Shown here: positions 31,323 through 38,640 of the stretch, one piece after another
Layout of the letters: every line of letters starts with the position of its first letter
Numbering within the stretch: position 1 is the stretch's first letter
Assembly (NCBI GenBank): GCA_015062205.1
Contig: SUVB01000056.1
Coordinates: 1 to 64,000 of the forward strand
Length of the DNA stretch: 64,000 nucleotides
Direction: 5' to 3'
Source of the DNA: Desulfovibrio desulfuricans
GTDB lineage: Bacteria; Desulfobacterota; Desulfovibrionia; Desulfovibrionales; Desulfovibrionaceae
The notes under the pieces: model-generated
Database searches by the model: none
The model's input: the letters and a program-made list of their open reading frames with translations, nothing else
Told to the model about the DNA's origin: nothing
Program-made: the position numbers and the translations under genes

Positions 31323-33941
31323 ATGCGATATATGTTTTTTTGGGCGGCAGCGTTGCTGCTCTGCCTGTCGGCCGGCACGGCCCAGGCCGCCCCGGGCGGC
31401 GAGCGGCTGCTCACGCGCCTGCCCAACGGGCTGACTGTCTGCATCATCAGGGATGCGCGTTTCCCCCTGGCGGCCACGCGGCTCTATGTGCGCACGGGTT
31501 CGGCCAATGAGGACGCGAAGCAGGCGGGCATCAGCCATCTGCTGGAGCATATGGTCTTCAAGGGCACGAATCACCGCCCCAAGGGGCGGATTGCCCGGGA
31601 TGTGGAGGCGCTGGGGGGATATCTCAACGCGGCCACCAGTTTTGACAAGACCTGGTTTATCACCGATATGCCTGCCGCGCACTGGCGCACGGGCATGGAC
31701 GTGGTCAAGGAAATGGCCTTCCAGGCCTCGCTGGACGCCAAGGAGCTGGAGGCGGAGAAGGAAGTGGTCATCTCCGAGCTGGAGCGCGACCAGGATTCCC
31801 CCACGCATCGCCTGTTTGAAGCCCTGCAGACGTCCGCCCTGCACGGCACGCCCTACGGGCGGCCCATCATCGGCTTCAGGGAAACGGTGCGCGCCGTCAC
31901 CGCCGAGGATCTGCGCGCCTATGTGCAACGCTGGTATCAGCCGCAGAACATGCTTCTGCTGGTGGCGGGCGACATTGAGCCGCAGGCCGTGCTGGACCAT
32001 GCCGCGAAGCTTTTCGGCGGGTTGAGCAACACGCACGAGTTTCCGGCCCCCGCGCCGGTCGACCTGCGGGGCGCGCCCGGCGGTCCCCGCGTGGAGGTGG
32101 TGCGCGGCCCCTGGAACAAGATATATCTGGGCATGGCCTTCCCGGCGCCGGCCCTGGGCGACCTGCGCTCCGTGGGGCTGGATGTGCTCTGCTATGCGCT
32201 GGGCGGCGACAGCGCTTCCGTGCTGCCTCTGGCCTACATGTACGACAAGCGCCTTGTGGACAATATCGACATGGGCAACATGAGCCTTGCCCGGGCCGGC
32301 ATGCTCTACCTGACCGCCACCCTGGCCCCCGAAAAGCTGGAAGAATTCTGGGGCAGTCTCACAGCGCGTCTGGCCCGCCTGAAGGCCGCGGAATTCAGAC
32401 CGGAAGCCCTGCAGCGCGCCCGCTACAACCTTGAGGATTCCCTGGATCGCTCTGCGGAGACGCTCTCCGGCCTGGCCTCCTGGGCGGGCACGGTGCAATT
32501 TGATCTGGGCGGGGAACAGGCGGAACGGAACCTGCGCTTTGCGCAGCGCAATGCGGACTTTGCCCAAGTGCAGGAGGCCATTGACCTCTGGCTGAATCCC
32601 TCGCTGTTGCGCGTGCGCGTGCTGGCTCCGGAACATGCAGACCTGCCCGATCTTGAGGCCGTACTGCAGAAAAACTGGCCCGGCCCGGCGGCCTCTGCTG
32701 CCGCCGCGCAACAAGGCGCTGCCGCCGGGCGGCGGGAAACGGTGAATCTGGGAAAGGGGCGCACGCTGATCCTCATTCCCGACGCCACCGTGCCCTATGT
32801 GTCGCTGGATTTCATGCAGCCGGGCGGCAATGCCCTGCTGACGCCACAGCAGCAGGGCCTGGCCGAACTGACCGCCCGCACCCTGACCGAGGGATGCGGC
32901 AAGATGGATTCGCCCGCCCTGAGCCGTTATCTGGCCGACAGGGCCGCCGAACTGGAGGCCCGGGCCGGGATACAGTCCTTCACGGTGTCGCTGACCGGTC
33001 CGTCCCGTTTCAATGCGGACTATTTTGCCCTGCTGGGCGACGTGCTGCGCAAGCCGCGCCTGGACGCCAGGGATGTGCGGCGGGAGGCGGAGGACGTCAA
33101 GGCAGCCATCCGTCAGCGTGCGGACAGGCCCACGGCCCTGCTGTTCTCCCGTCTGGGGCCCTTCCTCTACCCGGGGGGGCAGGTGTACGGCTATGATCCC
33201 CTGGGCACGGCGGCCAATCTTGACGCCTTCACTGCCAGGGATGTGCGCGCGTTCTGGAAGAAGCAGCTGGCCCAGTCCTGGACGCTTGCCGTGGCGGGCG
33301 ATTTTGACCGCGAGGCCGTGCTCGCCTTTGCCCGGAAACTGCCCGTGCCGGAGGCGTCGGAATTCCGGCTCGCGGCCCCTGCGTGGGGAACGGAAAAAAC
33401 GCTGGATCTGCATCTGCCGGGCCGCAATCAGGCCCATGTGCTGCAGGCCTTCAAGGCCGTGCCGCTCACACATCCCGACGCCCCGGCGCTGTCGCTGCTG
33501 CAGGCTGTGCTGGCGGGGCAGAGCGGTCTGCTGTTTACCCGGCTGCGCGACGAGCAGGGGCTTGGATATGTGGTCACGGCCATGTACAACGGCATGGCCG
33601 AGACGGGCCGCATGGTCTTTTACATCGGCTCCACGCCGGACAAGGTGGAGCAGGCCCGGCAGGGCTTTGCCGCCGTCATCGGCGACCTCAAGAGCAACCC
33701 CCTGCCTGCGGATCTGCTGGCGGCCGGGGCCAACAGCCTGCTGGGCGACTACCTGCGCAGCAGGCAGAGCCTGCATGCACGCGCGGGCGAGGCTGCTACG
33801 GAAGTCACGCTGGGGCTTCCCGAAGGGTTCGAGAAAAAGCTCATTGAGCGGGCCTCCGAACTCACGCCGGAAGACCTTCAGGCCGTCGCCCGCAAGTACC
33901 TGACGGAGGAGAACCGTTACGATATGACCCTGCTGCCGTAA
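31323..33941 (+). CDS. Exported M16-family zinc metalloprotease (two-domain)
   Basis: 872 residues with a signal peptide (cleavage near AQAAPGG). The inverted zinc motif H72-L-L-E75-H76 lies in ISHLLEHMVFKGT, and a downstream glutamate-rich helix (KEVVISELERDQDSP) supplies the third ligand. The second, inactive half ends with the R...Y substrate motif TRLRDEQGLGYVV. The length and order match pitrilysin-like enzymes that digest peptides in a closed chamber. The signal peptide puts it in the periplasm. It follows livF closely, so transport and peptide breakdown may share regulation, although that is inference. A strong terminator ends the gene. Confidence 0.93.
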   Translation: MRYMFFWAAALLLCLSAGTAQAAPGGERLLTRLPNGLTVCIIRDARFPLAATRLYVRTGSANEDAKQAGISHLLEHMVFKGTNHRPKGRIARDVEALGGYLNAATSFDKTWFITDMPAAHWRTGMDVVKEMAFQASLDAKELEAEKEVVISELERDQDSPTHRLFEALQTSALHGTPYGRPIIGFRETVRAVTAEDLRAYVQRWYQPQNMLLLVAGDIEPQAVLDHAAKLFGGLSNTHEFPAPAPVDLRGAPGGPRVEVVRGPWNKIYLGMAFPAPALGDLRSVGLDVLCYALGGDSASVLPLAYMYDKRLVDNIDMGNMSLARAGMLYLTATLAPEKLEEFWGSLTARLARLKAAEFRPEALQRARYNLEDSLDRSAETLSGLASWAGTVQFDLGGEQAERNLRFAQRNADFAQVQEAIDLWLNPSLLRVRVLAPEHADLPDLEAVLQKNWPGPAASAAAAQQGAAAGRRETVNLGKGRTLILIPDATVPYVSLDFMQPGGNALLTPQQQGLAELTARTLTEGCGKMDSPALSRYLADRAAELEARAGIQSFTVSLTGPSRFNADYFALLGDVLRKPRLDARDVRREAEDVKAAIRQRADRPTALLFSRLGPFLYPGGQVYGYDPLGTAANLDAFTARDVRAFWKKQLAQSWTLAVAGDFDREAVLAFARKLPVPEASEFRLAAPAWGTEKTLDLHLPGRNQAHVLQAFKAVPLTHPDAPALSLLQAVLAGQSGLLFTRLRDEQGLGYVVTAMYNGMAETGRMVFYIGSTPDKVEQARQGFAAVIGDLKSNPLPADLLAAGANSLLGDYLRSRQSLHARAGEAATEVTLGLPEGFEKKLIERASELTPEDLQAVARKYLTEENRYDMTLLP

Positions 33942-33985
33942 GATGCGGAGCAGATACCTTCAATCCGGCAACCGGACGACACCGG

Positions 33986-34039
33986 ACTGACGCCGCAGCC
34001 TGCGACAGCGGTACAGGCTGCGGCGTCAGTATTTTTTTT
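33986..34039 (+). terminator. Strong intrinsic terminator after the M16 protease gene
   Basis: A perfect 16-bp stem (33986-34001 against 34015-34030, beginning ACTGACGCCGCAGCCT) with a 13-base loop, followed by A and eight T (34032-34039). From here to about 34450 there are roughly 400 bases with no gene I can support. Confidence 0.95.
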
Positions 34040-34450
34040 GTAAAAACAGCATATTAAAAAAATGCAAAAAAAATTCGACGGGAAATTCCCGGATGGGGCG
34101 CATCTGCGGGATGTCAAGTGTCGGGTTGTCGTTGTTTTGCCCTTTGCCGTCTTGAAAGAGCTGTCCCGGCAGGCTACACTTTCCGGGTTCCACATGGATC
34201 GGCATCCCCGACGGAGTGCCTGAACGCCGTGTTCCGCTGCCCGGCAGGCAGCAGTGCTGCTGCAGTCCCTGCGATGCGCGCTGCCCGATGCCGACGGCAA
34301 ACGGCGACAGATGCTCCGCAAGCGGCGCAGTTTTGCTCCGGGCGAGAGGCGGCGTGAGCGACGCACACCGGCGCGGGGCTTTTTGTGAGAAATTTTGTCA
34401 GAAATGCCGTTGTATTGCTTTGAAGCTAGGAAGACTTTTTTTGCCGCCCG
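34040..34450. other. Intergenic stretch without a supported gene
   Basis: About 410 bases between the M16 terminator and the riboswitch promoter region. The left end is AT-rich (A-runs near 34055-34075) and the middle is GC-rich. Short frames here have no ribosome binding site or recognisable product. A palindrome GCAGCAGTGCTGCTGC at about 34248-34263 could bind a regulator. I see no tRNA or mobile-element ends. Confidence 0.4.
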
Positions 34451-34452
34451 CA

Positions 34453-34481
34453 TTGACAGTGGATAGTTCTTTTGAGATTTT
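34453..34481 (+). promoter_or_regulatory. Candidate promoter of the cobalamin riboswitch - nrdD transcript
   Basis: A perfect TTGACA at 34453-34458 and an AT-rich -10 region GATTTT at 34476-34481 with a 17-base spacer. Transcription would start near 34488, just before the riboswitch core. The -10 match is poor, so the exact start is uncertain. Confidence 0.4.
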
Positions 34482-34489
34482 CTAGAAAC

Positions 34490-34645
34490 TGAAAGCGCCA
34501 CTGGGCTTAATCGGGAATCCCGTGCGAATCGGGAGCGGACCCGCCGCCGTGAGCCTGAAAAAATCCGCTTTTCCCCGTGCGCCACTGGCTCTGCCGGGAA
34601 GGCCGAAAAGCGGAAGGCAAGCCGGAAGACCTGCTTTCACCGGAA
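34490..34645 (+). promoter_or_regulatory. Cobalamin (B12) riboswitch upstream of nrdD
   Basis: Conserved blocks of the cobalamin aptamer appear in order: GGGAATCCCGTGCGAATCGG (34513-34532), GAGCGGACCCGCC (34533-34545), the GTGAGCCTGAAA region, GCCACTGGCTCTGCCGGGAA (34581-34600), and the B12-box AAGCCGGAAGACCTGC (34619-34634). Adenosylcobalamin binding normally shuts off the downstream gene. Here that would switch off the oxygen-sensitive, B12-independent class III reductase when B12 is available for a class II enzyme. Exact ends are approximate. The expression platform lies in 34646-34771. Confidence 0.93.
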
Positions 34646-34687
34646 CCATTGCGGATATCGGCAACGGGTATTTGCCGGCATGCCGCC

Positions 34688-34707
34688 GGCGGGGCGAGCG
34701 CCCCGCC
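34688..34707 (+). promoter_or_regulatory. Hairpin in the expression platform between riboswitch and nrdD
   Basis: GGCGGGGC (34688-34695) pairs with GCCCCGCC (34700-34707) across a GAGC tetraloop. A second, shorter hairpin GTCGC/GCGAC follows at about 34714-34727. There is no long T-run after them. This suggests control of translation initiation or a Rho-type mechanism, not a classical terminator, but the alternative pairings have not been computed. Confidence 0.45.
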
Positions 34708-34771
34708 TGTTGCGTCGCGCCTGCGACGGGCCGCGGTTTCCGGTACAACATGTGAGGAGTTTGGAGCCGCC

Positions 34772-37027
34772 ATGCTCGCCAGCATCATCAAACGTGACGG
34801 AACGGAAGCGCCTTTCGACTCGGTCAAGATACTCAACGCCATCACCAAGGCCAACAAGGCGGTGGGCGGTGAGGACATGTCTCCCACAGATCTGCTGTAC
34901 GTCACCGAAAAGGTCTGCAAGGCGCTGGAGCAGCGCGGCCTCAAGCATGTTGAAGAAATTCAGGACGTGGTTGAGGAAACCCTGATCCGCTTTGACTACG
35001 CCAAGACGGCCAAGGCTTACATTCTGTATCGTGCCGAGCATACGAAAATCCGCAATGCGGAATCGTATCTCATGGACATCTATAAAAAGCTGACGTATTC
35101 CCCGGCCATCAAGGAAGACATCAAACGCGAGAACGCCAACATCGACGGCGATACGGCCATGGGAACCATGCTCAAGTACGGTTCCGAAGGCTCCAAGTAT
35201 TTCATAGACAACTACATCCTGCCCAAGGACGCCTCGGCCGCCCACATCAACGGCGACATCCACATTCACGACAAAGATTTCTACATGCTCACGGAGACGT
35301 GCTGCCAGATAGATCTCATCCCCCTGTTTAAAAACGGCTTTTCCACAGGGCACGGGCATCTGCGCGAACCCAACTCCATTGAGAGCTATTCCGCCTTGGC
35401 CTGCATAGCCATCCAGGCCAACCAGAATGAAATGCACGGCGGCCAGAGCGTGCCGCACTTTGATTATGCCATGGCCGGGGGCGTCATCAAGACCTACCGC
35501 AAGGAGTATGAACGGGCCTTTGCCGCCGTGCTGCGTCTTGTGGGGGGGATGGATGAAAAGCAGGCCGCAGCGCAGACCCGTGAATGCATGGGCCGCCTGC
35601 CGGAAGGCCCGCGCATGGGCTCCATTGACGCCTATGGGCGCGAACTTGTCGAGGCCGCCCCGGAAGCGCAGCGCGCACTTGTGGCGCAGGCCCACGCCTA
35701 TGCCGCCGACGAGGCCCGGAAATACGCCGACCGCCGCACGTATCAGGCCATGGAGGCCCTTATTCATAACCTGAACACCATGAACTCCCGCGCGGGCGCG
35801 CAGGTGCCCTTCAGCTCCATCAATTACGGCACGGATGTCTCCGCCGAGGGGCGCATGGTCGTCAGGAATCTGCTGGAGGCCACCAGGGCCGGGCTGGGCA
35901 ACGGCGAGACCTCCATTTTCCCCGTGCAAATATTCAAGGTGAAGTCCGGGGTGAACTACAATCCCGGCGAGCCCAACTACGACCTGTTCAAGATGGCCAT
36001 GGAAGTCTCCGCCCTGCGGCTCTTTCCCAATTTCAGCTTCATGGACGCCCCCTTCAACCTGCAGTACTACCGCGAGGGCGACTACAATACCGAAGTGGCC
36101 TACATGGGCTGCCGCACGCGCGTCATGGGCAATGTGCACGATCCCGAGCGCGAGGTGACCTGCGGCCGCGGCAATCTGAGCTTCACCTCCATCAATTTGC
36201 CGCGCCTGGGCCTGGACGCCCAGGGCGACGTGAAGAAATTCTATGCCCTGCTGGATGACCGCATTGATCTGGTCTTCCGGCAGCTCCTGCACCGCTTCAA
36301 GATCCAGTGCGCCAAGAAAGTGCGCAACTATCCCTTCCTCATGGGCGAGGGCGTCTGGATTGACTCCCGCAAGCTCAAGCTGGACGACGCCATCGGCGAA
36401 GTGCTCAAGCACGGCACGCTGACCGTGGGCTTTATCGGCCTGGCCGAAACGCTCAAGGCGCTCACGGGCCGGCACCACGGCGAGAGCGAGGAGGCGCAGA
36501 AGCTCGGCCTGGAAATCATCACCCACATGCGCAAGCGCTGCGACGACAAATCCGCCGAGACCGGCCTGAACTTCTCGCTCATAGCCACCCCGGCGGAAGG
36601 GCTCAGCGGCCGTTTCGTGGCGCTGGACAAGGTGAAATACGGCTGTATCCCCGGCATTACCGACAGGGATTACTACACCAATTCCTTCCATGTGCCGGTG
36701 TACTATCCCATCAAGGCGTTCAGGAAAATCCAGCTTGAGGCGCCTTACCATGCCCTGACCAACGGCGGCCACATCACCTATGTGGAGCTGGACGGCGACA
36801 CCTGCAAGAACCCCGAAGCGTTCGAGAGCATCATCCGCTACATGCATGACCAGGGCGTGGGCTACGGCTCCGTCAACCACCCTCTGGATCGTGACCCCGT
36901 GTGCGGCTATGTGGGCGTCATTAACGGGCGTTGCCCCCGTTGCGGGCGCAGGGAAGGCGAGGGCGTGAGCGCCGAGCTGCTGGAAGAGCTGCGCAAAAAA
37001 TACCCGCATACTCCTAGGTGGGACTAG
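34772..37027 (+). CDS. nrdD: Anaerobic ribonucleoside-triphosphate reductase, large part lacking the glycyl-radical loop
   Basis: 751 residues. It has an N-terminal ATP-cone (IKRDGTEAPFDSVKI, LIRFDYAKTAKAYILYR), then the class III core: INGDIHIHDKDFYMLTETCC, HGGQSVPHFDYAMAGGV, the tip-loop cysteine in AYMGCRTRVMGNVHDPE and GLAETLKALTG. It makes deoxynucleotides anaerobically. The C-terminus has a zinc-ribbon piece with C711, C721 and C724, but Asp708 stands where a fourth cysteine is usual (DPVCG instead of CPVCG). The chain stops at a TAG 27 codons after C724, before any R..GY glycyl-radical motif. That motif is in the next gene, in the same reading frame. The start has GGAG upstream and agrees with the conserved N-terminus. 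Confidence 0.95.
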   Translation: MLASIIKRDGTEAPFDSVKILNAITKANKAVGGEDMSPTDLLYVTEKVCKALEQRGLKHVEEIQDVVEETLIRFDYAKTAKAYILYRAEHTKIRNAESYLMDIYKKLTYSPAIKEDIKRENANIDGDTAMGTMLKYGSEGSKYFIDNYILPKDASAAHINGDIHIHDKDFYMLTETCCQIDLIPLFKNGFSTGHGHLREPNSIESYSALACIAIQANQNEMHGGQSVPHFDYAMAGGVIKTYRKEYERAFAAVLRLVGGMDEKQAAAQTRECMGRLPEGPRMGSIDAYGRELVEAAPEAQRALVAQAHAYAADEARKYADRRTYQAMEALIHNLNTMNSRAGAQVPFSSINYGTDVSAEGRMVVRNLLEATRAGLGNGETSIFPVQIFKVKSGVNYNPGEPNYDLFKMAMEVSALRLFPNFSFMDAPFNLQYYREGDYNTEVAYMGCRTRVMGNVHDPEREVTCGRGNLSFTSINLPRLGLDAQGDVKKFYALLDDRIDLVFRQLLHRFKIQCAKKVRNYPFLMGEGVWIDSRKLKLDDAIGEVLKHGTLTVGFIGLAETLKALTGRHHGESEEAQKLGLEIITHMRKRCDDKSAETGLNFSLIATPAEGLSGRFVALDKVKYGCIPGITDRDYYTNSFHVPVYYPIKAFRKIQLEAPYHALTNGGHITYVELDGDTCKNPEAFESIIRYMHDQGVGYGSVNHPLDRDPVCGYVGVINGRCPRCGRREGEGVSAELLEELRKKYPHTPRWD

Positions 37028-37081
37028 CGGATTCACATATCGGCAGTTGTATATTGTCAGCGAGTAAAGGAGAAGAGGCTC

Positions 37082-37252
37082 ATGTTGATGAAATCGCGTC
37101 TGTTTGAGGAGAGCAAGCCCGCCGTCAAACTGGTGGGGGAGGGGGTGGGCTTTGAGCGCACCCGCCGCATCACCGGCTATCTTGTGGGCACGCTCGACCG
37201 CTTCAATAACGCCAAGCGCGCCGAGGAGCGCGACCGGGTCAAGCATGCCTGA
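37082..37252 (+). CDS. Separate glycyl-radical subunit of the class III reductase
   Basis: 56 residues. RRITGYLVGTLDRFNNAKRA, then EERDRVKHA, is the canonical C-terminal NrdD radical loop, with Gly32 as the radical site (codon 37175-37177). It is absent from the 751-residue NrdD. A good AAAGGAG site lies nine bases before the ATG. The frame is the same as nrdD and only one amber codon plus 18 sense codons separate them, so it could also be reached by read-through. The stop overlaps the nrdG ATG (37245). NrdG is expected to generate the glycyl radical on this small protein, which must then dock in the NrdD active site, in the way the YfiD spare part replaces the loop of pyruvate formate-lyase. 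Confidence 0.88.
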   Translation: MLMKSRLFEESKPAVKLVGEGVGFERTRRITGYLVGTLDRFNNAKRAEERDRVKHA

Positions 37253-37754
37253 CGGTGATACGCCGCAGCTCAGGCTTTCGGGCATCGTGGAGGAATCCAT
37301 TGTCGACGGCCCGGGGTTGCGGTTTGTGCTGTTCACGCAGGGGTGTCCGCACCACTGCAAGGGGTGTCACAACCCGCAGACGCACAGTTTTGAGGGCGGC
37401 TTTCTGCTGACGGCAGAGGCCGCCCTCGCGCGCATCCGTGAAAATCCCCTCCTGGCCGGCGTGACCTTTTCCGGCGGCGAGCCCTTCGAACAGCCGCGGG
37501 CGCTCTGCGCCGTGGCCGAAGGCGTGCGCGGCATGGGCAAGAATGTCGTCACCTTCACCGGGTATACCTACGAGGCCCTGCTGCGCCGCGCCGACCCCTG
37601 GACAGCGCGCCTGCTGGAATTGACCGACCTACTTATCGACGGCCCCTATGTGGAGGCCCTGCAGAATCTTGATCTGCGGTTCCGCGGCAGCTCCAACCAG
37701 CGCGAGCTTGACCGCGCCGCCCGCGCCCGCCTGCGCGCCGCCTGCGCGCTGTGA
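37245..37754 (+). CDS. nrdG: Anaerobic ribonucleotide reductase activating protein (radical SAM)
   Basis: 169 residues, the normal size. The radical SAM cluster motif is C34-x3-C38-x2-C41 in TQGCPHHCKGCHNPQTH, and the SAM-binding GVTFSGGEPFEQP follows. NrdG uses S-adenosylmethionine and a [4Fe-4S] cluster to remove hydrogen from the NrdD glycine. The ATG at 37245 overlaps the end of the 56-residue glycyl-radical gene, so the activase and its substrate protein are translationally coupled. It is under the same B12 riboswitch. Confidence 0.95.
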   Translation: MPDGDTPQLRLSGIVEESIVDGPGLRFVLFTQGCPHHCKGCHNPQTHSFEGGFLLTAEAALARIRENPLLAGVTFSGGEPFEQPRALCAVAEGVRGMGKNVVTFTGYTYEALLRRADPWTARLLELTDLLIDGPYVEALQNLDLRFRGSSNQRELDRAARARLRAACAL

Positions 37755-37794
37755 CGGGCGGAGCAGGGCAGCTGCAGGGAAAGGCTGTTTTCGG

Positions 37795-37825
37795 GGGAGG
37801 GGCTTTTTTGAAAAATGCCCCTCCC
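37795..37825. repeat. Inverted repeat after nrdG
   Basis: GGGAGGGGC (37795-37803) pairs perfectly with GCCCCTCCC (37817-37825), and the 13 bases between (six T, G, five A, T) can extend the stem. No T-run follows on the plus side. It lies 40 bases past nrdG and about 150 bases before the end of the convergent lysE-type gene, so it may terminate or protect either transcript. Confidence 0.5.
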
Positions 37826-37974
37826 TGCGCCCCACCGCAAAAACGTTCATTGCATAGCGTACCGCGCAGGTCATGGCCTTTCCGGGCCGTGGAACTGCGC
37901 TGCGCTCACGGCAGCGGTCTTCCCTCTCCCAAAAACTTCAGGGCGTCTGCCCAGGGGACGGCTGCAGGGCGGCG

Positions 37975-38640
37975 TCATGTGCGTCCGGTGAACAGCAGGG
38001 CGACCGCCAGCGCCACAAAGACGCAGCCTGCGATACGCTGGATCAGTATCTGCCCTGCGGGCGACCGGTTGAACCATACGGCCAGCCGTCCGCCCAGCGC
38101 CGCCACGGTGCAGAACACCACGATGGTCGCCAGCATGAACAGCGCCCCCAGGCACGCCACCTGCAGAGCCGCGCTGCCCCTGGCCGGGTTGCAGAACTGC
38201 GGCAGGAAGGCCAGAAAGAAGATGGAAACCTTGGGATTGGTCACGTTCATGACAATGCCCCGCCGGTACAGGGCCGCATATCCGGGAAAATCCGCCCGGC
38301 GGCGGGGCGTTCCGGCCTCTCCCGCCGCCTGCTCGGCGGCGTCGGCCCGCGCGGCTCCGGCGCGGAAGGAAAGCCGGGCCAGCCACAGCAGGTAGGCCGC
38401 GCCCGTGATTTTCAGCAGGGTGAACGCCAGGGGCGAGGTCTGGAAAATGACGGCCACGCCCAGCGCCACGGCCGTGGTGTGCACGCACAGGCCCGTGACC
38501 AGACCCAGCGTGGTGGCGACGCCTGCGCCCGCGCCGTACAGGGCGGACTGGGTGAGCACGAAGATGTTGTCCGGCCCCGGCGCTATGCCGAGCAGGAGGG
38601 AAGCGGCGAAAAACGCCAGCATAACGTCGGGCGTGGGCAT
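37975..38640 (-). CDS. LysE/RhtB-family amino acid exporter
   Basis: 221 residues with six predicted membrane helices. The N-terminal FFAASLLLGIAPGPDNIFVLTQS is the signature of the LysE/RhtB superfamily, and VMNVTNPKVSIFFLAFLPQF is its second conserved block. Such proteins export amino acids such as homoserine, threonine or lysine; the substrate cannot be assigned here. The gene start overlaps the GIY-YIG gene stop by one base. Confidence 0.9.
   Translation of the reverse strand: MPTPDVMLAFFAASLLLGIAPGPDNIFVLTQSALYGAGAGVATTLGLVTGLCVHTTAVALGVAVIFQTSPLAFTLLKITGAAYLLWLARLSFRAGAARADAAEQAAGEAGTPRRRADFPGYAALYRRGIVMNVTNPKVSIFFLAFLPQFCNPARGSAALQVACLGALFMLATIVVFCTVAALGGRLAVWFNRSPAGQILIQRIAGCVFVALAVALLFTGRT

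Follow-up and report, generated by a model that had tools for sequence, protein, structure and literature searches.

Positions 1 to 64,000 of contig SUVB01000056.1 (GenBank assembly GCA_015062205.1, Desulfovibrio desulfuricans), the 64,000-nucleotide stretch referred to here as the window, carry a class III ribonucleotide reductase operon in which the glycyl-radical loop is encoded separately from the large chain. The large NrdD chain (the body) ends before the loop, and the loop is the product of a 56-residue gene (the loop gene) located between nrdD and the activase gene nrdG. Judged from the sequences, these genes very probably specify a two-chain class III reductase, in which the small chain would be an obligate radical subunit acting in trans, and further copies of it would be mobile spare parts. 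An earlier reading of the window, made from its letters alone (the sequence-only reading), had proposed the obligate two-chain enzyme, and the proposal is supported by the conservation of the split with differing stops and frames, by detached loop genes and by purifying selection.

Organization of the nrdD operon

The features of the operon are as follows (window positions):

34476..34652, + strand, cobalamin riboswitch upstream of the nrdD operon (Rfam RF00174, 86.6 bits, whole model)
34772..37027, + strand, nrdD body with ATP-cone, barrel and zinc site, 751 amino acids, without glycyl-radical loop (PF03477 at residues 4-91; PF13597 model positions 1-531; NCBIfam PRK07111, 1047 bits)
35300..35302, + strand, codon of Cys177, counterpart of Prevotella copri NrdD Cys171 (alignment to 8p23)
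36110..36112, + strand, codon of Cys447, the thiyl-radical cysteine, counterpart of P. copri Cys416 (alignment to 8p23)
36893..36943, + strand, zinc site D-x2-C-x9-C-x2-C, the last folded element remaining on the body (sequence)
37025..37027, + strand, TAG closing the nrdD body (sequence)
37066..37072, + strand, AAAGGAG ribosome-binding site of the loop gene (sequence)
37082..37252, + strand, stand-alone glycyl-radical (loop subunit) gene, 56 amino acids (PF13597 model positions 533-562, 30.5 bits, above the Pfam cut-off of 26.2; conserved residues)
37175..37177, + strand, radical glycine codon, Gly32 of the small protein, corresponding to P. copri Gly711 (alignment to 8p23)
37245..37754, + strand, nrdG, radical-SAM activase (CPHHCKGC) whose ATG at 37245 gives an 8-base overlap with the loop gene (TIGR02491, 133.6 bits, above cut-off; sequence)

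The gene layout is firm. The Pfam NRDD model (562 positions) is divided at the break: the body accounts for positions 1-531 with 622.4 bits, and the small protein for 533-562 with 30.5 bits. The break separates the zinc site from the buried radical loop. The sequence-only reading had placed the end of NrdD, devoid of a radical motif, at the TAG, and the motif RRITGYLVG, with Gly at residue 32, in a small gene having its own ribosome-binding site and overlapping nrdG; all these assignments proved right. The body ends EELRKKYPHTPRWD, and no glycine within a radical motif is found there. The barrel with ATP-cone and thiyl cysteine that is characteristic of class III enzymes is present, and the adjacent gene encodes the dedicated radical-SAM activase NrdG; the C-terminal glycyl-radical loop is on another gene instead of the same chain. 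In the alignment to P. copri NrdD (8p23, whose chain numbering is 4 higher than the P. copri residue numbers) the NxN flap corresponds to body residues 121-123, and Gly32, Tyr33 and Arg40 of the small protein to Gly711, Tyr712 and Arg719. The roles of the P. copri residues are taken from PMC11226230. One zinc-ligand position of the body is Asp, not Cys; one-chain relatives have the same D-x2-C, and the substitution is therefore not a mark of the split. The closest named relatives of the small protein are from Desulfovibrio.

The stop codon of the body and the start of the loop gene are 54 bases apart. An intron, intein or homing endonuclease at the break was rejected on the shortness of this gap and on the lack of any Rfam intron match in 33900-38000. 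Since the loop gene shares the nrdD frame and the TAG is the sole stop between the two, read-through needed to be excluded (see Discussion).

The source genome is a draft of 58 contigs (92% complete). A search of these contigs revealed no second NrdD body, which bears on the possibility, raised in the earlier reading, that another full-length nrdD exists in the genome. A second stand-alone loop gene is located in a prophage (G000:C15:3172-3267), and the B12-dependent class II reductase NrdJ is also encoded (L303). By the regulatory logic of cobalamin riboswitches, the presence of the riboswitch together with NrdJ suggests that B12 probably shuts off the nrdD operon when NrdJ can work.

Conservation of the split within the genus

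The genus sample comprised 61 genomes including the source genome, and the resulting table was sorted by hand. A body ending at NRDD position 531 was found in 46 of the 61, and a separate loop piece (533-562) in 45 of these 46; the split genomes include single-contig chromosomes (G006, G041, G021 and G055), and the conservation of the split is firm. In seven genomes the sole NrdD is a one-chain protein of a distant type, and a separate loop gene is absent from all seven. Two genomes contain a body fragment only (G033, G056), four contain nothing, and two more are considered in the Discussion. In 35 of the 46 split genomes the loop gene sits between the body and nrdG (36 loci, G050 being represented twice).

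The stop codons of the body in these 36 loci are TAG (17), TGA (10) and TAA (9), and the frame of the loop gene relative to the body is offset by 0, 1 or 2 in 7, 17 and 12 loci, respectively, the window being among the 7. For 70 loci from named genomes the corresponding numbers are 27, 27 and 16. The split is thus conserved, with differing stop codons. The conservation in relatives also rules out a sequencing error behind the TAG, which the sequence-only reading had considered together with the possibility of relatives having one continuous chain; genus relatives of the window's NrdD type are split. In addition to the usual operon, G050 contains a second set (L137, G050:C59) in which NrdD is in three pieces (N half, C half and loop), followed by nrdG.

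Spread beyond the genus

In a family sample of 129 genomes at least 90% complete, the loop alignment matched 36. Every strong match was in a short frame of 150 residues or fewer, and such matches came from 10 of 37 genera; an eleventh genus gave a weak match only, to a one-chain NrdD. In a phylum sample 14 of 197 genomes matched, the strong ones again belonging to the source genus. Four weak phylum matches (G308, G333, G357 and G399; 113-159-residue frames, another family) gave nothing above threshold with the window's three proteins and may represent GrcA.

A scan of one genome per species identified at least 576 loci. The best 80 were ranked on likeness to the loop and are biased accordingly; a separate body lies upstream of the loop gene in 70 of them, the stretch examined contains the loop gene alone in 7, and 3 encode a one-chain NrdD. 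Bacilli, Butyricicoccus, Lachnospiraceae, Oscillospiraceae, Fibrobacter and Anaerobiospirillum are among the matches listed, for the most part as metagenome bins, and the order body, loop gene, nrdG recurs in Bacillota, Fibrobacter and Anaerobiospirillum. Whole-genome searches of six such genomes found exactly one body and one loop gene in four (Massiliimalia timonensis G433, Fibrobacter G434, strain 1XD42-1 G436 and the Bacilli bin G438), one body with three loop genes in Anaerobiospirillum G435, and both a split and a one-chain NrdD in the Lachnospiraceae bin G437; in M. timonensis the search found no NrdD other than the split one.

A less biased count was obtained from the family of Massiliimalia, where 40 of 60 genomes match at E <= 1e-8. 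Sorted by hand on frame length and match start, with a long frame taken as a one-chain NrdD, 17 genomes have a short loop gene of the window type, 12 a later-starting short gene and 19 a long frame. The long frame co-occurs with the window-type loop gene in 1 of 17 genomes and with the later-starting gene in 7 of 12. In sequence databases 7997 of 8000 candidate loop proteins scored, some of which may be fragments.

In the 1.46-Mb chromosome of G146 the loop gene is broken (L288) and the genome contains a single weak NRDD match (E 1.4e-13), the class III reductase apparently being lost; G112, from the same genus, retains the split pair.

Loop genes away from the body

The separability of the loop gene is equally firm. 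Ten of the 46 split genomes (G032, G012, G003, G024, G039, G059, G016, G047, G052 and G053) have no intact loop gene beside the body and one elsewhere; the G052 contig stops 316 bases past the body, which leaves nine firm non-adjacent cases. In G003 the operon copy of the loop gene has decayed (L013), and a loop-nrdG pair (L141), without a body within the 6-kb stretch, adjoins a methionine-synthase gene. In five of these genomes (loci L139, L144, L146, L147 and L162) the loop gene has chromosomal neighbours in common, among them a glucosamine-6-phosphate isomerase/6-phosphogluconolactonase-like gene, a GGDEF gene and a peptidase M15 (the neighbour scan covered five proteins, four of L139 and one of L144). 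Peptidases of the M15 type also occur among phage lysins.

On one chromosome, two loop genes (L169 and L170; G021:C1:973200-979400 and 2813900-2820100) occupy the same relative position among shared gene families, a likeness that suggests a copied mobile element. Genome G030 (98% complete) has a stand-alone loop gene (L148), and no NrdD body was found in it.

Phage-borne and two-domain versions

The second loop gene of the source genome codes for 68 amino acids, and its neighbours are phage-type DNA methyltransferases, a Holliday-junction resolvase and an endolysin. A 72-kb IMG/VR contig matches the surrounding stretch without a difference over 3096 bases. Among the best 80 of 102 viral loci, 45 contain a loop gene and lack a body in the stretch examined, 7 have both, apart from each other, 25 have a one-chain NrdD (12 by frame analysis, 13 by resemblance to Clostridioides difficile phage matches), and 3 are fragments below threshold. 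When 47 of the 55 viral records lacking a one-chain NrdD, some of them near-copies of one another, were searched over their whole length, a body was found in 6 and none in 41 (in one of the latter, G061, a second match was too weak to count, E 0.005); many of these records are fragments, no completeness rating among them reaches 90%, and the absence of a body is therefore not proof. In a 14-row loop alignment, 12 rows of which are viral, the radical Gly and the next Tyr are invariant, and position 40 is R or K.

In the Eggerthella lenta phage EL753P1 (L305, OP172808.1) nrdD is loop-less, and the loop sequence lies 0.4 kb downstream in two overlapping frames, the first alone being annotated. 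The nrdD of this phage has an intein-like insertion, judged by eye, exactly at the active-site cysteine.

The later-starting genes of the 12 Massiliimalia-family genomes encode an N-terminal domain of about 55 residues before the loop in all 14 cases (L306-L319), and the stretches around these genes showed no match to the window's body or NrdG (0/14). Such two-domain proteins of about 90 residues form one family, viral members (L060, L065, L093) included; 7246 of 7306 candidates match at E <= 1e-6, some of them possibly fragments, and the 120 matches listed cover 86-100% of the query. Outside the loop, none of the five relatives tested (L054, L060, L065, L093, L257) has a Pfam match above cut-off. 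Some genomes hold both the two-domain version and a one-chain NrdD.

Selection and origin

Pooled pN/pS values were 0.055 for 26 distinct operon loop genes of the genus, 0.197 for 26 genus loop genes away from the body and 0.201 for 43 viral detached loop genes, determined over 32 loop codons and only from pairs with pS < 0.65; the pattern by which the codons were picked fixes several positions, so that the invariance of those positions is no evidence and the ratios are lowered. Operon and viral loop genes are under purifying selection, and this result is firm.

A tree of 104 bodies, from which the one-chain rows L005, L006, L100 and L133 were dropped and in which long rows such as L292 and L037 were retained, requires at least seven changes between the split and the one-chain state, three of them forced by well-supported branches. 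A single origin of the split is rejected on this count; splitting, or re-fusing, recurred. The ends of bodies (GEGVxxE) resemble the start of the loop gene. Of 121 body ends examined for a vestige of the loop 119 could be scored, and for 20 of them at most 2 of 200 shuffles scored as high; the window's body was outside the top 25. The body end of L287 (15.2 bits) exceeds its own 200 shuffles and the best of all shuffles (14.0), and Pfam matches extend to positions 544-559 in bodies with a degraded-looking loop. These data suggest that a detached copy arose before the covalent loop decayed, although the window's own body is without such a signal; perhaps a phage brought the detached copy. Because the vestige signal is striking in a minority only, duplication followed by loss in cis is offered as a suggestion and not as a result.

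Discussion

The system shares with the class III NrdD/NrdG pairs of P. copri (8p23), phage T4 (1h78) and Thermotoga maritima (4coi) the ATP-cone, barrel, thiyl cysteine, zinc site, radical motif and NrdG; in those enzymes, however, the radical glycine is in cis, whereas here it is on a separate gene product. Like GrcA/YfiD and T4 Y06I, the small protein is, by its sequence, a small stand-alone glycyl-radical domain, of which one version is phage-borne, and the extra N-terminal half of the two-domain version resembles the layout of YfiD, whose first 60 residues are disordered (PMC8683613). The likeness to YfiD noted in the earlier reading is therefore fair, above all for the phage and 90-residue copies. 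Membership in GrcA/YfiD is nevertheless ruled out by the different sequence family: GrcA/YfiD belongs to PF01228, whereas the six small proteins scanned match PF13597, with other matches below cut-off and none to PF01228. The partner differs as well, being pyruvate formate-lyase there, for which T4 Y06I is a phage-borne spare part (PMC8683613), and a loop-less NrdD in the window. As the window's NrdD has no loop of its own, the small part should be needed always, not merely after damage. In the split class II reductase NrdJa/NrdJb the C-terminal piece is likewise a separate chain, but that chain is predicted to contribute domains of the zinc-finger and IscU-like types rather than the radical site (PMC9669993). 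Phage reductase genes also occur in pieces (nrdA-a/b of Aeh1, reported to be functional, and nrdD of phiAS4 and 949; PMC3653736); here, in contrast, the break holds no endonuclease or intron, and in the loci examined it falls after the zinc site and before the radical loop, the small piece moving independently.

Docking, radical transfer in trans, a benefit under oxygen and use by phages are inferred. The domains on the large chain are the ATP-cone, the barrel, in which the thiyl Cys447 lies, and the zinc site; the 56-residue chain supplies the glycyl-radical loop and C-terminal tail. The small chain would dock in the barrel at the place taken by the covalent loop in other NrdDs, NrdG would generate the radical on its Gly32, and the radical would be handed to Cys447 in trans. 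In inactive P. copri NrdD the entire C-terminal radical domain is disordered, and rigid-body behaviour is expected of it for the most part (PMC11226230). Oxygen cleaves such enzymes at the radical glycine (PMC3019208), so that damage would cost just a 6-kDa cartridge, which might then be replaced, as the earlier reading proposed by analogy with YfiD. Phage and prophage cartridges would most simply maintain or raise the host supply of deoxyribonucleoside triphosphates (dNTPs) in infection, a parallel being Y06I, the pyruvate formate-lyase spare part of T4.

Four other explanations were weighed. The phage proteins might compete for NrdG or NrdD and block dNTP synthesis of the host or of another phage. 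A loop gene without a body, as in 41 of 47 viral records, suits a modulator no less than a helper. A protein acting purely as a decoy, however, has no evident need for the radical glycine, which is invariant together with the tyrosine in the mostly viral alignment (position 40 varying between R and K), and the viral copies are under purifying selection; we regard this explanation as unlikely. Quite improbable is that the large chain works with a vestige of its own C-terminal loop, the small protein being always a mere spare for oxygen repair. It draws on the LERLRAVKGY-like body ends of L287, L289, L290 and L301, on the L287 score above the best shuffle, and on the occurrence of two-domain versions alongside one-chain NrdD; against it, the window's body end has no radical-motif glycine, and loop-less body and loop gene co-occur in the genus. 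Still less probable is a single chain after all, produced by read-through of the TAG with the help of a suppressor, pyrrolysine or programmed recoding. The window's loop gene is indeed in the nrdD frame without a further stop, but this frame is shared in just 7 of the 36 loci of the genus and in 27 of the 70 from named genomes, the body stops differ, the window's loop gene is equipped with a start and a ribosome-binding site, and in nine genomes the loop gene is not beside the body; read-through, pyrrolysine incorporation and frameshifting were rejected on the varied frames, stops and distances (pyrrolysine genes were not searched for). Decay or misassembly of a gene dispensable in an NrdJ-reliant genome, which the 58-contig draft, the presence of NrdJ and the decayed copies L013 and G146 (L288) might suggest, is scarcely credible given the identical body end point in 46 of 61 genus genomes, single-contig chromosomes included, and in other phyla, and given purifying selection on the loop genes.

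Several observations weigh against an obligate two-chain enzyme. The bodies L287, L289, L290 and L301, from related genera, end in what looks like a degraded loop keeping a glycine (KGY), and a glycine in cis may still have a role in those genera. One of the 46 split genomes, the draft G031, shows no loop gene, and two drafts, G030 and G038 (2/61), show a loop gene and no body. With B12 present NrdD need not be essential, because the class II NrdJ is also encoded. Finally, the two-chain enzyme is a prediction from gene sequences.

Class III reductases are described as bearing the radical on the catalytic chain, for example in PMC9531940, a survey that discarded sequences of less than 400 residues, a filter by which such small proteins would be hidden. 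According to PMC8683613 (2021), only two spare-part proteins are validated, both for pyruvate formate-lyase, and others may exist for other glycyl-radical enzymes. No description of a separate radical subunit or spare part for a class III reductase was found in the open-access literature, judged by titles and abstract openings, most subscription papers being outside this scope. The genes are already known as database entries, since some small proteins (Desulfovibrio piger, Sporobacter termitidis) carry the label 'anaerobic ribonucleoside-triphosphate reductase'. The phage copies, the spread over several phyla, the class II NrdJ, the shared nrdD frame and the prophage loop gene go beyond the sequence-only reading.

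With a separate loop the radical part could be supplied, left out or labelled as desired, and activation, oxygen damage and allostery could be tested directly. The data also provide thousands of candidate spare-part sequences for an enzyme of DNA-precursor synthesis and a small phage gene likely acting on the dNTP supply of the host. We consider the chances evenly balanced that the class III reductases of many anaerobes use exchangeable cartridges, with an obligate subunit of 55-60 residues encoded beside nrdG and a pool of mobile and two-domain cartridges, carried by phages and elsewhere, that plug into the host enzyme. The oxygen cartridge and the takeover by phages are put forward as hypotheses; if they are true, a phage would re-arm or take over host dNTP synthesis by means of a 6-10-kDa protein, with no reductase of its own.

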